Positions 2,052-47,760 of a stretch of 64,000 bases of DNA are shown here, one piece after another. The translations under genes were made by a program, and so were the position numbers. This stretch comes from Thermocrinis jamiesonii. Lineage in GTDB: Bacteria; Aquificota; Aquificia; Aquificales; Aquificaceae. Location: the NCBI RefSeq assembly GCF_000702425.1, contig NZ_JNIE01000002.1:310001-374000 (forward strand), read 5' to 3'. The number at the start of each line of letters is the position of its first letter. Position 1 is the first letter of the stretch. The notes under the pieces are model-generated. The model ran no database searches. It saw nothing but the letters and a program-made list of their open reading frames with translations, and had not been told where the DNA came from.

Positions 2052-2090
2052 AGGATTCCTCCTTTACAAAGCCGTCCGTTCCATTTTTCC

Positions 2091-3614
2091 TTAACCATAC
2101 TTATCCGAACCTACCCATTTGAGTAGTTTCTTGAGTTTGAGCTGAGAAGTTTCAACTATCCTTAACCAAGCAAGAAGTTTTGAGAAAGAGATAAAGCTTA
2201 AAATAGCTTTCCATTCCACCTGCACCAGGCGGGACGGAAACCTGCCTGGAATACCCTCTGCCCTCTGGGCTTTGGGTTTTGTCAGGCGAAATGCTATATT
2301 AACACTTGCATTGTAATCTCTATCATATTTCCCACAAGAACACTTAAAAACTAACCTTTCTGTCTTACCTTCCTTACCACACTTATGACAAATTCTTGAC
2401 GTATGTGCGGGATTTACTTTTATGACTTTTAAGTTGTAAAGCCTTGCCTTCTCTTCAAGCCTGCTTGCAAACCTTGAATAAAACCATTGGCTAAATCTTC
2501 TTAAAGCTTTCTTGTCCTTCCAATCGGGAACTTCTTTGAAGCTTAGGTCCTCTACCACTATGGCTTGACAATCATAAACCTTTGCGTGTGCTATGACAAA
2601 ATTGGTAAAAGTCTCAAGTATTTCTTTTCTTAACTGCTTTATCTTCCTCTGCCTTAGTTTCTGCTCAACAAACAAGTGTCTTAACCTTTCCCAAAGCCTT
2701 TCTTTTTCTCGCTTACAAGCTGTATTTTCTATGCTATTGTAGATGTTGTCTATCTTTCTCTCAAGGGCTGATACTTCAAAGTGTAGTCTTTCTATCTTTC
2801 TTAACATCTGCGTTTTAAAGAACAAAGGTTTGGAAACTTTCTCTCCTTCTACCAATACCGCAACTCCAAGCCTTTTTTCTGAAGGTGAAAGGTCTAAGGC
2901 TAACACTCTTTCTATGTTTTCAGGCTCTTTTACTTCAAAACTTAAGGGAATAACAAGCCTGTATATGCTGTATCCACTTTTTAACAAGACCTTTTTTATC
3001 AACACCGCTTTAACTTCCTTAGCTTTCGTTAAAGCTCTTCTAAGTCTTTCTGGAATAAGCTTCTTAACACTTATCCACTCCCAACCTTTTTGTGTAGGAA
3101 CCTTTATGCTGAACTCCAAAAAGTTTCCTGAAATTTTTAACCTTCTAAACTGTCCTTTTTCAAGGTTGTCGTCTGCAGAAGTAATAACTATTTGACCGTT
3201 AAACCTTGGATGTGGAAGGTCAAAGTAGCAACTAACCTCTTTTCCTTTCTTTCTAAGGTTTTCTATCTGTCTTTGGATGTTTAAAACAAAGTTTTTGCTG
3301 TAACCTTTGATTTCTTCTCCCTTTAACAACTTCTCAAACACTTCTTTTCTTTCTATCTGACTTCTGATGATTTGTCCTGTTAGCTCAAGGACGTTTCTAA
3401 AAACTCTTGAAGGGAGACCTTCAGGAGTAGGAAATTCTTTTTTCAAAATTCCCACAGCAGAGCCTTTTTGGGACAAAAGCTTAAAACCTTTTTCGTTCCA
3501 AAGTTTTGGGATGTAGGAATTAACTTGGTTTTTAAAGACGGAGAAAAGCCTGTCAAGGTGGGGATAAATTCTTTGTGGAAGAGTTAGCTCATAGCTAAGG
3601 ATTTGCTCCTTCAT
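2091..3614 (-). CDS. tnpB: TnpB-family RNA-guided nuclease (OrfB_IS605)
   Basis: 507 aa, longer than the usual ~400 aa of TnpB. The RuvC-like core is complete: first catalytic Asp in VLALDLSP (D241), Glu in VVEDLS (E355) and last Asp in KYDRDYN (D433). The zinc finger is also complete, with C409-x2-C412 and C425-x-C427. Residues 270-345 form a charged helical region. A C-terminal extension of about 65 residues follows the RuvC-III motif. Its coding bases overlap the region expected to encode the guide (omega) RNA. TnpB proteins of IS605/IS1341 elements are RNA-guided DNA nucleases that help the element persist. No tnpA is nearby, so this copy would need a transposase in trans. Confidence 0.9.
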   Translation of the reverse strand: MKEQILSYELTLPQRIYPHLDRLFSVFKNQVNSYIPKLWNEKGFKLLSQKGSAVGILKKEFPTPEGLPSRVFRNVLELTGQIIRSQIERKEVFEKLLKGEEIKGYSKNFVLNIQRQIENLRKKGKEVSCYFDLPHPRFNGQIVITSADDNLEKGQFRRLKISGNFLEFSIKVPTQKGWEWISVKKLIPERLRRALTKAKEVKAVLIKKVLLKSGYSIYRLVIPLSFEVKEPENIERVLALDLSPSEKRLGVAVLVEGEKVSKPLFFKTQMLRKIERLHFEVSALERKIDNIYNSIENTACKREKERLWERLRHLFVEQKLRQRKIKQLRKEILETFTNFVIAHAKVYDCQAIVVEDLSFKEVPDWKDKKALRRFSQWFYSRFASRLEEKARLYNLKVIKVNPAHTSRICHKCGKEGKTERLVFKCSCGKYDRDYNASVNIAFRLTKPKAQRAEGIPGRFPSRLVQVEWKAILSFISFSKLLAWLRIVETSQLKLKKLLKWVGSDKYG

Positions 3615-3639
3615 TCTTTAACTCCTATCCACATAGATA

Positions 3640-3668
3640 AACATAACACGGTTTGAGTAGAAAATCAA
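3640..3668 (-). promoter_or_regulatory. promoter of the TnpB element
   Basis: On the minus strand, TTGATT (3668-3663) is followed after 17 bases by TATGTT (3645-3640), 26 bases upstream of the tnpB start codon. The same arrangement, TTGATT-17-TATATT, is kept in the deleted copy at 36098-36126. That conservation supports it as a real promoter. Confidence 0.55.
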
Positions 3669-3736
3669 AGAACAGCTGTTAACCCCGCCCGATGTGGGCG
3701 GGAGAAGTAGCCACAGCACGAGGCGCACCATAAAGC

Positions 3737-34523: not shown

Positions 34524-35165
34524 AGGCTGTTCTAAAAATCCACCGAATACCTTAAAAATAGGTTAAAGCATAAGGCAGTGGATAAGGCAAACAAAAATAA
34601 ATAGATTACAAGTAACTAGAAGTTCCAAAGAATAGCACAGGCAATAGCCATCTTCCTTGCTAAATCCTTTCTCAAAAGATTAAAGCTTGAGCCAACCTTT
34701 TGCTTTATGCTCCCAAACAACTGCTCTACCATATACCTAACCTTCCCATACCTTTCCCAATTTTCCTTTGACAGCTTCCTTAAAGGATGTTTAATACTCA
34801 TCCTTATTGTTTCCTTTGTCCTTACCGCCGGTTTTAATCCTTTATCTAAAAGAGCTTGTATGATATTAGCAAAGTTTGCCCTTGTCCGCTATAAAAGGTA
34901 ATCCTTTTTGGGCTTCTAACCTACTTAATACTTTCCTTAACATCTCAATCTCACTCTCATAAACTCTTCCAGTTTCTACCACCATTATTATCTTTCTTCC
35001 ATCCTCATCTACCACCGTTACCACTTCAAGCCTAATGTGAGCCTGAACAGTTCTTATTTGTGTTTAGTAAGGGCATAAGGTTTTTTCAAAGGTAATCTGC
35101 TTCTTCTTATAAGGACCTTTTTTATACCATAACTTTCCTAAAGTGGCATTTTTCGAACAACCTCC
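34524..35165 (-). mobile_element. decayed DDE insertion sequence
   Basis: The left end GGCTGTTCTAAAAATCC (34524) and the right end, read in reverse, GGTTGTTCGAAAAATGCC (near 35165) are imperfect inverted repeats. They enclose a broken transposase gene. At ~640 bp it is far shorter than a complete element, so internal sequence has been lost. Similar ends occur at 32901 and 34496. Confidence 0.65.
34616..35154 (-). pseudogene. transposase remnant (DDE family), with stop and frameshift
   Basis: Reading the minus strand, one recovers LGKLWYKKGPYKKKQITFEK, then an in-frame TAA at about 35070. The next segment is IRTVQAHIRLEVVTVVDEDG through LPFIADKG, then a frameshift at about 34880. A final frame contains DKGLKPAVRTKETIRMSIKH and ends VEQLFGSIKQKVGSSFNLLR...CAILWNF. 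The ADKG Asp and the RYMVEQLFG block, where the catalytic Glu would lie, fit an IS5/IS4-like DDE transposase. The N-terminal part is missing. It is not functional. Confidence 0.75.
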
Positions 35166-35240: not shown

Positions 35241-35468
35241 ATGAAAAAGTTTCTATTACTTGGAGTGGCTAGCTTAGCTGCATTTGTGGTGTCATGTCAA
35301 CAAAAACCTGCTGAGCAACCAGCGGAGCAACAGCCTACTGAACAGCAGCAACAACCTGCAGAACAACAGCAACCAGCTGAACAACAACAATCTGCTGAAC
35401 AGCAACAACCTGCTGAACAGCAACAATCTGCTGAACAACAACAACCTGCTGAACAACAACAGAAGTAA
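35241..35468 (+). CDS. Gln-rich repeat lipoprotein
   Basis: 75 aa. A lipoprotein signal peptide (MKKFLLLGVASLAAFVVSC) has its lipobox Cys at residue 19. The mature part is almost only Pro, Ala, Glu and Gln, with six tandem PAEQQQ/SAEQQQ units. The start of the mature protein, CQQKP, is identical to that of the cytochrome lipoprotein at 46250, whose linker is also Gln/Glu-rich. This suggests a shared origin. There is no folded domain; it may be an anchor whose functional domain was lost, or a structural spacer. Consensus promoter and ribosome binding site are present. rplU follows 53 bases after its stop. Confidence 0.75.
   Translation: MKKFLLLGVASLAAFVVSCQQKPAEQPAEQQPTEQQQQPAEQQQPAEQQQSAEQQQPAEQQQSAEQQQPAEQQQK
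35355..35462 (+). repeat. six 18-bp coding tandem repeats
   Basis: Each unit encodes (P/S)AEQQQ. The P/S alternation reflects CCT against TCT, giving an 18/36-base periodicity that is prone to slippage. Confidence 0.9.
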
Positions 35469-35822: not shown

Positions 35823-36080
35823 ATGGCATCTAAGGCAAGTGGCGGATCAACAAGAAACGGTAGAGATAGTCACTCAAAGAGACTGGGTGTTAAAAGATTT
35901 GGAGGTCAATTTGTGCGTGCAGGAAATATTTTAGTAAGGCAAAGGGGCACAAAGATATATCCAGGTCAAAATGTGGGTATGGGATCAGACTTTACGCTTT
36001 ATGCTCTGGTAGATGGTATAGTTAAGTTTGAATCCAGGAAAAATAAAAAGTTTGTCAGTGTTATACCTTTAACTCAATAA
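35823..36080 (+). CDS. rpmA: 50S ribosomal protein L27
   Basis: 85 aa. [20 protein letters not shown] then [20 protein letters not shown] are typical of bL27, whose N-terminal tail reaches the peptidyl-transferase centre. There is no N-terminal cleavage extension of the Firmicutes type. A deleted TnpB element starts only ~11 bases after its stop. Confidence 0.97.
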
Positions 36081-36090
36081 AGGTAGTGAG

Positions 36091-36247
36091 CAGTTTTTTG
36101 ATTTTCTATTCAAGGTGTGTTATATTTATCTCCATGGATAGTATTACGCCTGACAAAATCTAAAGCCAAGGGGTGCAAAAGGACTTTCCAGACAAGTCTC
36201 CGTCCTACAAGCGGGTTATTTGGATAAGTATGGTTAAGGAAAAATGG
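36091..36247 (+). mobile_element. internally deleted TnpB element (family of the 2.1-kb copy), promoter and RNA-scaffold region kept
   Basis: Three blocks match the intact element at 2081-3702. 36091-36147 matches its left end, including the promoter TTGATT-17-TATATT (36098-36126). 36148-36205 resembles the tnpB 3' region starting CGCCTGACAAAA and running to CCGTCC. 36222-36247 is 26/26 identical to the extreme right end. The ~1.4 kb of coding sequence between them is gone. It lies between rpmA and the UbiE-like gene. A short transcript of roughly 115 bases could still be made from it. Confidence 0.7.
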
Positions 36248-36257
36248 GATGGGACTT

Positions 36258-36926
36258 TTATACCTTTTTCGCAACAGTTATATAAACGATTCCTAAGAGC
36301 TTTTTATGTATATTTGTTATTCTAAAACCTGCCTTTTCTAGCTCTTTTTTAAGTTCTTCCTCTCCAACGCTATTTTTCAGCGAATGTATGAAAAAATCCC
36401 ATTTATCTCTTCCAAACAGGACAATCCCTACAGGTTTCATAGGGTATTTCATAAAAAATACCAACATTGGCGTTAACCAAAATCTATTAATGTCCAATAT
36501 GGCTAATTTTCCGTCTTTTGCAAGCACTCTGCTTGCTTCTTTCAGAAACTTATCTCTATTGTATAAGTGCCTATATACTAAGGACAGAGTTAGATTTTTG
36601 AAACTACTGTCTTTAAAGGGAAGTTCTTCTGCATCTGCAAAGATAAAATAGCATTCCCTACATTTTCCTTTTGCCATTTTTAGCATCTCAAAAGAAATAT
36701 CTATACCCACCTTTAGTCCTTTAAATTTTGATCGCACTAACACTTCACCAGTACCTGTGCCAACATCTAAAGTGTTACCTTCATTATCAAGTAGGCTCAG
36801 CATATTACTTTGCCAGTTTTTTATTTTTCCAAAGGTCACAAGGTTCAAGAAAAAGTCGTAATATTTGCTTACAGAAGAAAAAACTTCTGAAACTGTATTC
36901 TTGAAGTTGTTCGACAAACCTCTCAT
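36258..36926 (-). CDS. UbiE/MenG-like class I SAM methyltransferase
   Basis: 222 aa. The N-terminal VSEVFSSVSKYYDFFLNLVTFG is the UbiE/MenG signature. SAM motif I is LDVGTGTGEVL, followed by GIDIS and the acidic motif ADAEELPF. In Aquificales the substrate could be demethylmenaquinone or a related quinone, fitting mqnC at 17860. The start ATG and the first ~11 codons (MRGLSNNFKNT) lie in, or next to, the right end of a deleted TnpB element. The ATG overlaps the stop of that element's mini-ORF by four bases. The exact start is therefore the notable uncertainty. Confidence 0.82.
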   Translation of the reverse strand: MRGLSNNFKNTVSEVFSSVSKYYDFFLNLVTFGKIKNWQSNMLSLLDNEGNTLDVGTGTGEVLVRSKFKGLKVGIDISFEMLKMAKGKCRECYFIFADAEELPFKDSSFKNLTLSLVYRHLYNRDKFLKEASRVLAKDGKLAILDINRFWLTPMLVFFMKYPMKPVGIVLFGRDKWDFFIHSLKNSVGEEELKKELEKAGFRITNIHKKLLGIVYITVAKKV

Positions 36927-47048: not shown

Positions 47049-47105
47049 ATTCTTTCTCAGTAGCAATACCAAGCAAGTTTTCCAAGAGTTCGCTAACGTG
47101 GTTTT

Positions 47106-47212
47106 TTGAGTTTGAGCTGAGAAGTTTCAACTATACTGAGCCAAGCAAAAAGTTTTGAAAAAGAGATAAAACTTAAAAAAGCTTTCCATTCCACCTGCAT
47201 CAGGGAGGGCGG
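47106..47212 (+). mobile_element. TnpB 3'-end scar beside the CRISPR array
   Basis: These 107 bases match the complement of the tnpB 3' region at 2131-2237, with about 11 differences counted by eye; the first 29 bases are identical. Neither the gene body nor the extreme right end is present. It ends 22 bases before the leader-distal CRISPR repeat. Confidence 0.8.
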
Positions 47213-47234
47213 TTTTTTCAGAGGGAACAAGCAA

Positions 47235-47533
47235 ATCTCCATCCCACACAGTGGGCTTAGAACTTAGGTGAAATACCGATAACGACAAGACTTACAGAGC
47301 TTGTCTCCATCCCACACAGTGGGCTTAGAACGATATTGCATAAGCAATGGAATTCCGATGGATTTAGAGAGTCTCCATCCCACACAGTGGGCTTAGAACA
47401 GGTATAAAAACGACTTTAGATGAGATAGACAATGTAGTCTCCATCCCACACAGTGGGCTTAGAACATCACCCGAGACGCCTGCTCCATAGTAAAAAGCCA
47501 TTCAGTCTCCATCCCACACAGTGGGCTTAGAAC
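47235..47533 (-). CRISPR. CRISPR array, five 29-bp repeats and four spacers
   Basis: Repeats lie at 47235-47263, 47303-47331, 47371-47399, 47437-47465 and 47505-47533. Spacers are 39, 39, 37 and 39 bases. On the minus strand the repeat begins GTTCTAAGCCCACTG and ends GATGGAGAC, with the internal hairpin CCCAC-TGT-GTGGG. Four repeats are identical. The repeat at 47235 differs only at its outer base (A for G on plus), as expected at the leader-distal end. The leader with a consensus promoter is on the right, so transcription is on the minus strand. The 3' ATGGAGAC resembles the ATTGAAAC handle of type I/III repeats. No cas genes are in the window. Confidence 0.95.
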
Positions 47534-47760
47534 CCCAACTAACCACCTTAATCAAAATAAGGTAAATCAATAATTTTGTCAAGGGGGTCCCCCTCGCAAA
47601 TGAAGGTTATTTTCCGAAAATCCGAGGTTGTGCAAAGTTGAGTGTGTTATTGTCAAATTTAAGTCCTTGTCTCCCAATGCTTTAAACAATCGTGCATAAT
47701 TATGACTTTGTGCAATTACATAATTATGACTTTATGTTTTTGTGATGACTGGTATCTATC
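47534..47760 (-). promoter_or_regulatory. CRISPR leader with promoter
   Basis: AT-rich, gene-free stretch next to the first repeat. On the minus strand TTGACA (47582-47577), 17 bases, TATTTT (47559-47554) points into the array, with start expected ~12 bases before the first repeat. Further upstream are inverted motifs (GAGGGGGACCCCC, CGGATTTTCGG) and two copies of CATAATTATG. Most of 47565-47640, and a separate segment at 47692-47716, recur at 51279-51367. Confidence 0.75.

Follow-up and report, generated by a model that had tools for sequence, protein, structure and literature searches.

Between rpmA and a convergent gene for a UbiE-like methyltransferase, Thermocrinis jamiesonii carries a TnpB-less mini-element of IS607 type, hereafter m1. 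The same window (the whole stretch of DNA analysed, 64,000 nucleotides) holds EL1, an intact-looking TnpB element without tnpA. Their features are as follows, R1 being a covariance model of the omegaRNA 5′ scaffold and P1 to P3 the helices of that scaffold, both described below.

35823..36080, + strand: rpmA (ribosomal protein L27), left neighbour of m1
36084..36252, + strand: m1, TnpB-less IS607-type mini-element (from homology to the ends of EL1 and of a second copy, EL2; right boundary from homologous copies)
36098..36126, + strand: promoter-like TTGATT-17-TATATT in the left end of m1 (sequence reading)
36134..36141, + strand: ATGGATAG, remnant of the tnpA start codon region in m1 (comparison with loci L020 and L021)
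36147..36205, + strand: degraded omegaRNA 5′ scaffold of m1, CGCCTGACAAAA...CCGTCC (R1 model and fold z)
36208..36213, + strand: CAAGCG, candidate 3′ arm of P1 in m1 (R1 alignment)
36246..36252, + strand: GGGATGG, right terminus of m1 and putative pseudoknot strand (direct reading)
36253..36272, + strand: would-be guide of m1 (position past the corrected right end)
36258..36926, − strand: UbiE-like methyltransferase, convergent right neighbour of m1
about 2076..3682, − strand: EL1
2076..2082, − strand: GGAACGG, right terminus of EL1
2091..3614, − strand: TnpB of EL1, 507 aa
2217..2288, − strand: intact omegaRNA 5′ scaffold of EL1 (P1, P2, P3; 80.9 bits with R1)
47102..47224, − strand: TnpB C-terminal remnant (residues 456-496) beside a CRISPR array

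Left-end homology of m1 starts at about 36084-36089, directly past the rpmA stop (36080). At the other side, GG[A/G]ACGG closes every complete homologous right end examined, so that we place the terminus at 36252 (GGGATGG), 5 bases beyond 36247, which gives a corrected length of about 169 bp and makes the would-be guide start at 36253. This guide is flanking sequence, antisense to the methyltransferase gene, whose 3′ end it enters. The preliminary description, made from the same DNA, had set the element at 36091-36247, its guide at 36248-36267 and the intact element at 2081-3702; the element is real, with both ends moved outwards, the guide shifts accordingly and EL1 becomes about 2076-3682. 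The three parts said to be retained are indeed there. Compared with EL1 by blastn within the genome, the left end is 81% identical over 53 bases (E=6e-8) and carries the promoter-like hexamers TTGATT (36098-36103) and TATATT (36121-36126) with a spacer of 17, the tnpB 3′ part is 78% identical over 68 bases (E=4e-7), and the right end is 97% identical over 29 bases (E=4e-7), including a core at 36222-36247 that matches in 26/26 positions. As judged from these E values, between 4e-7 and 6e-8 in the organism's own genome, the likeness to EL1 is not a matter of chance. The reading frame of the TnpB tail is shifted in m1 and hits a stop, and CAAGCG, its candidate P1 3′ arm, has one mismatch to CGCCTG.

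Two further frames were observed in the neighbourhood: a short one at 34616-34801 that recalls the C-terminal end of a transposase (by eye an IS5-like one) and, upstream of rplU-rpmA at 35241-35468, a small lipoprotein-like frame of PAEQQQ repeats.

The TnpB of EL1 has its RuvC motif residues in LALDLS, VVEDLS and DRDYNAS and keeps the zinc-ribbon cysteines; it matches Pfam PF07282 (E=3.9e-18, 65.8 bits) and reaches 97.7 bits with NCBIfam guided_TnpB, just below the curated cut-off of 100. The −10 box of EL1 reads TATGTT. A second full-length copy, EL2 (L050, G000:C2:384384-385970), has an open TnpB frame that is 93% identical and a damaged scaffold that has lost P2 and retains a weakened P3 (24.2 bits with R1). 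Another TnpB-less copy, m2 (L049, G000:C2:208943-209055), has lost its scaffold almost entirely (7.4 bits with R1), and m1 and m2 are the only two diverged TnpB-less copies of this genome. At least four further fragments include L051, which is cut by a contig end, and the small L052, L053 and L054. The CRISPR array at about 47100-47540 (repeat GTTCTAAGCCCACTGTGTGGGATGGAGAC) directly adjoins the TnpB C-terminal remnant, and a scaffold relic in another genome (L157, G014) likewise lies beside CRISPR-like repeats.

On sequence grounds the m1/EL1 element is of IS607 type. In genome G033 a serine recombinase (resolvase; G033:C1:820490-820885) lies directly upstream of a homologous TnpB, and the first codons of TnpA, a serine recombinase, are still present in L020. 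Remnants of the tnpA start are found in L020, EL1 and m1: GTGGATAGG of EL1 and ATGGATAG of m1 derive from one and the same tnpA start, whose counterpart in L020 reads ATGGACAGG... MDRLLSIGEASRILSASVDTLKRWE, and L021 is a full IS607. Right ends finish with GG, and a GG also occurs at variable spacing, 1-5 nt before the conserved left-end motif; both are candidate junctions. We considered IS605-type ends with TTGAT as insertion site and rejected them, as homology extends upstream of TTGAT and the full relative has a serine recombinase. A search of the organism's own genome for a serine recombinase returned none, so nothing there now appears able to move the element.

The rpmA-methyltransferase junction is empty in all five same-genus genomes in which it could be read (G001, G002, G003, G004 and G006), which makes m1 a lineage-specific insertion. 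In relatives the two convergent genes abut or overlap, and m1 fills the entire junction.

The omegaRNA 5′ scaffold was derived from the tnpB 3′ ends of 12 homologous copies, from which R1 was built; EL1 was among them, and its 80.9 bits are therefore the score of a member. The scaffold comprises three helices, namely a closing stem P1 and the hairpins P2 and P3, and the loop of P3, CCGT[C/T]CC, has its complement in the right end, GG[A/G]ACGG. In the 12-sequence alignment, hand-trimmed to line up the P1 arms in a way that favours the proposed structure, 94.3% of cells are paired and 15 of the 19 pairs show double changes; slid registers are all far worse than the proposed pairing. At the loop and right-end bases of the pseudoknot, 35 loci (m1 included) present 16 U-A, 15 C-G, 3 U-G and a single mismatch, and the covariation between U-A and C-G gives a Fisher p=4e-6 with related loci treated as independent. 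A scan with 4227 Rfam models, RAGATH-18 possibly but not certainly being one of them, returned no match in the window at the gathering cut-off and, for eight loci at E<=1, none beyond chance. We therefore discarded a known Rfam RNA as an identity for the mini-element or its relatives, and the omegaRNA structure of the Aquificota mini-elements found no counterpart among Rfam families in the scans run.

Searching 136 genomes of the phylum with R1 uncovered many TnpB-linked scaffolds along with at least 12 contig-internal TnpB-less loci whose scaffold is intact (42-83 bits), distributed over 9 genomes and 7 genera:

L122 (G020), ahead of rpsB
L148 (G033), ahead of fabD; the genome also carries a full IS607
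L128, L153 and L155 (G108)
L130 (G053)
L133 and L150 (G031)
L137 (G069)
L138 (G068)
L139 (G016)
L149 (G052)

None of these 12 loci has an upstream TnpB beyond the tail encoded by the scaffold itself, as checked by reading the flanks for L149, L150, L153 and L155 and by tblastn for the others. Most have promoter-like boxes and right ends, and the positions of the m1 hexamers recur in L122, L149 and others. In several of them, as in m1, the tnpA start is fused to the final codons ahead of P1, and short stretches of the TnpB tail can still be read in frame in L122 and L148. The element is present in multiple copies, with about eight copies or pieces in G108 and six or more in its sister G107, many of them 91-100% identical. 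Both genomes have a TTGATT-17-TATAAT box whose end lies 12-13 bases ahead of P1, and among closely similar copies, differences in the loop are matched by differences in the right end. Considering ten TnpB-less copies alone, 92.2% of cells are paired, with double changes in 14 of 18 pairs, a signal that may partly predate the loss of tnpB and that comes from copies found with the same model. Some mini-elements appear by reading to be in decay: the left ends of L130 and L138 are cut short, the right end of L130 is mutated and the loop of L154 is disrupted. A common insertion of about 53 bases, hairpin-capable by eye, is seen in the P3 loop region of L153, L154 and L155 of G108.

Measured against this scaffold, m1 gives a sobering outcome: its scaffold is broken. 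It scores 10.3 bits with filters off versus 80.9 for EL1, and chance matches elsewhere in the window score higher (15.9 and 13.9 bits). The low score follows from a deletion that took the P3 3′ arm and the 3′ domain, leaving the P1 5′ arm, a weakened P2, the P3 5′ arm and the loop CCGTCCT. The gap from P1 to the terminal strand, 32 bases in m1, measures 50-86 in the intact TnpB-less copies and 133-151 in most of those with TnpB. Minimum free energy folding gives z=+0.61 for m1, no better than shuffled sequences, against −3.25 for EL1 and −3.25 to −5.77 for intact copies. The pseudoknot strands can still pair (CCGUCCU/GGGAUGG, 7 pairs including two G-U). The would-be guide has no match at 0-1 mismatches besides its own site, one place at two mismatches and, at up to three, 19 places including its own site versus 12 for the reversed control; a host target was accordingly rejected for want of convincing enrichment. 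Given a scaffold score under chance, the deletion and the absence from five same-genus genomes, a functional guide gene at m1 is unlikely. Of the earlier suggestion that TnpB-less copies act as stand-alone guide-RNA genes, the general idea gains support from the intact copies in other Aquificota, which may be such genes to judge by their sequence, while its application to m1 fails on two grounds that the preliminary description had itself named as refuting, the absence from close relatives and a scaffold that, by covariance model and folding energy, cannot fold.

Our preferred reading, to which we assign a probability of roughly 0.8, is that m1 is an inert relic of the non-autonomous IS607-type mini-element kind. 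Most likely it belongs, as a dead copy, to a genuine class of IS607 elements in which promoter, guide RNA and ends are preserved. In its ancestor, tnpA and almost the whole of tnpB would have been missing, with the promoter-bearing left end, the start of tnpA, the omegaRNA scaffold and the right end still in place; that this ancestor was already a mini-element, not a full element deleted in place, is less certain. Counting against an inert m1, the perfect 26-nt right end, the promoter and the pseudoknot complementarity exceed what uniform decay would leave, and the m1 scaffold could also be a divergent, compact variant outside the coverage of R1.

The principal competitor, which has a real though minority chance of being correct, derives m1 from a full TnpB element by simple deletion in place, with the mini-elements of other genera unrelated to its origin; the retained parts would be leftovers of two short-homology deletions, a scenario compatible with an inert m1. 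Breakpoints differ among the other TnpB fragments of the genome (L051-L054 and m2), and by direct reading the m1 and m2 junctions are not the same and show microhomology (ATAG and TG). Since these junctions differ, m1 and m2 may be separate in-place deletions. Against this, all four of m1, m2, L122 and L148 have the tnpA start fused to codons immediately ahead of P1, the very architecture of intact mini-elements elsewhere. Far less probable is that the right end of m1 was retained for a role between rpmA and the methyltransferase gene, as a regulatory spacer or a signal for transcription rather than as a guide RNA: m1 does occupy the whole junction of convergent genes that otherwise abut or overlap, but close relatives manage without any spacer there and the conserved parts of m1 match transposon ends at unrelated sites. 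Weakest of all, a working stand-alone guide-RNA gene loading the TnpB of 2091-3614 could appeal to the promoter-like hexamers, the perfect right end, the preserved pseudoknot complementarity and a TnpB with RuvC motif residues in the same genome, yet we dismiss it on the lost P3 3′ arm and 3′ domain with the resulting score, a fold no better than shuffles, the absence from five same-genus genomes and the lack of a second target at 0-1 mismatches.

The guide of a TnpB system, being the flank itself, has to be in cis, whereas the protein may be supplied from any location; one would therefore expect relatives that have become non-autonomous to retain the guide RNA while shedding the genes, and the intact Aquificota mini-elements make this guide-only expectation directly testable. 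Their left-end promoter would drive a short RNA that starts just before the scaffold and continues past the right end, its flanking part then serving as guide. TnpB made elsewhere could bind this RNA and cut the vacant site, recombination would then restore the mini-element, and TnpA acting in trans might move it. Expression, TnpB loading in trans, cleavage, homing and mobility in trans are conjectural steps. Slightly short of an even chance, in our estimate, is the broader proposal that Aquificota IS607 mini-elements are maintained as promoter-driven, guide-only homing elements that borrow TnpB in trans, with m1 as a dead example; each flank would be the element's own address, and guided cutting of the vacant site would keep the element in place.

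Guide RNAs without an adjoining nuclease gene are familiar as the stand-alone omegaRNAs of IscB, a different nuclease family (IscB/HEARO). In the literature searched, mostly at the level of titles, abstracts and terms and with few subscription journals, we came across no account of IS607 mini-elements lacking TnpB but retaining the guide scaffold.

IS607 elements with TnpB (OMEGA) resemble m1 and its relatives in the GG that lies at the right junction and close to the left one, GG being the IS607 overlap dinucleotide (PMC4058570), in the pairing of TnpA with TnpB carried by a relative, and in having the 3′ end of tnpB give rise to a structured RNA, with the right end coming next; m1 differs in having neither gene and its own genome in having no serine recombinase. 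The palindrome-associated PATEs of Haloquadratum, IS605-derived and described as fused ends in the accessible part of their report, share with the mini-elements a short, protein-free and multi-copy nature as well as those fused ends; they are IS605-type and that part reports no guide-RNA scaffold, whereas the Aquificota scaffold is kept and co-varies (PMC3119063). Variants of the BcISt1 IStron without open reading frames are likewise IS605/IS607-type elements devoid of both full-length ORFs, but they carry a self-splicing group I intron (PMC4227781), none of which was seen in the mini-elements, Rfam scans included. RAGATH-18 RNAs lie next to an IS607 TnpB in 64% of cases and not in the other 36%, and the reRNAs derived from them have in common with our elements the IS607 TnpB, a structured scaffold that precedes the right end and the occurrence of unlinked copies; these reRNAs are placed there outside coding sequence, whereas the Aquificota scaffold overlaps the coding end of tnpB (PMC11061315).
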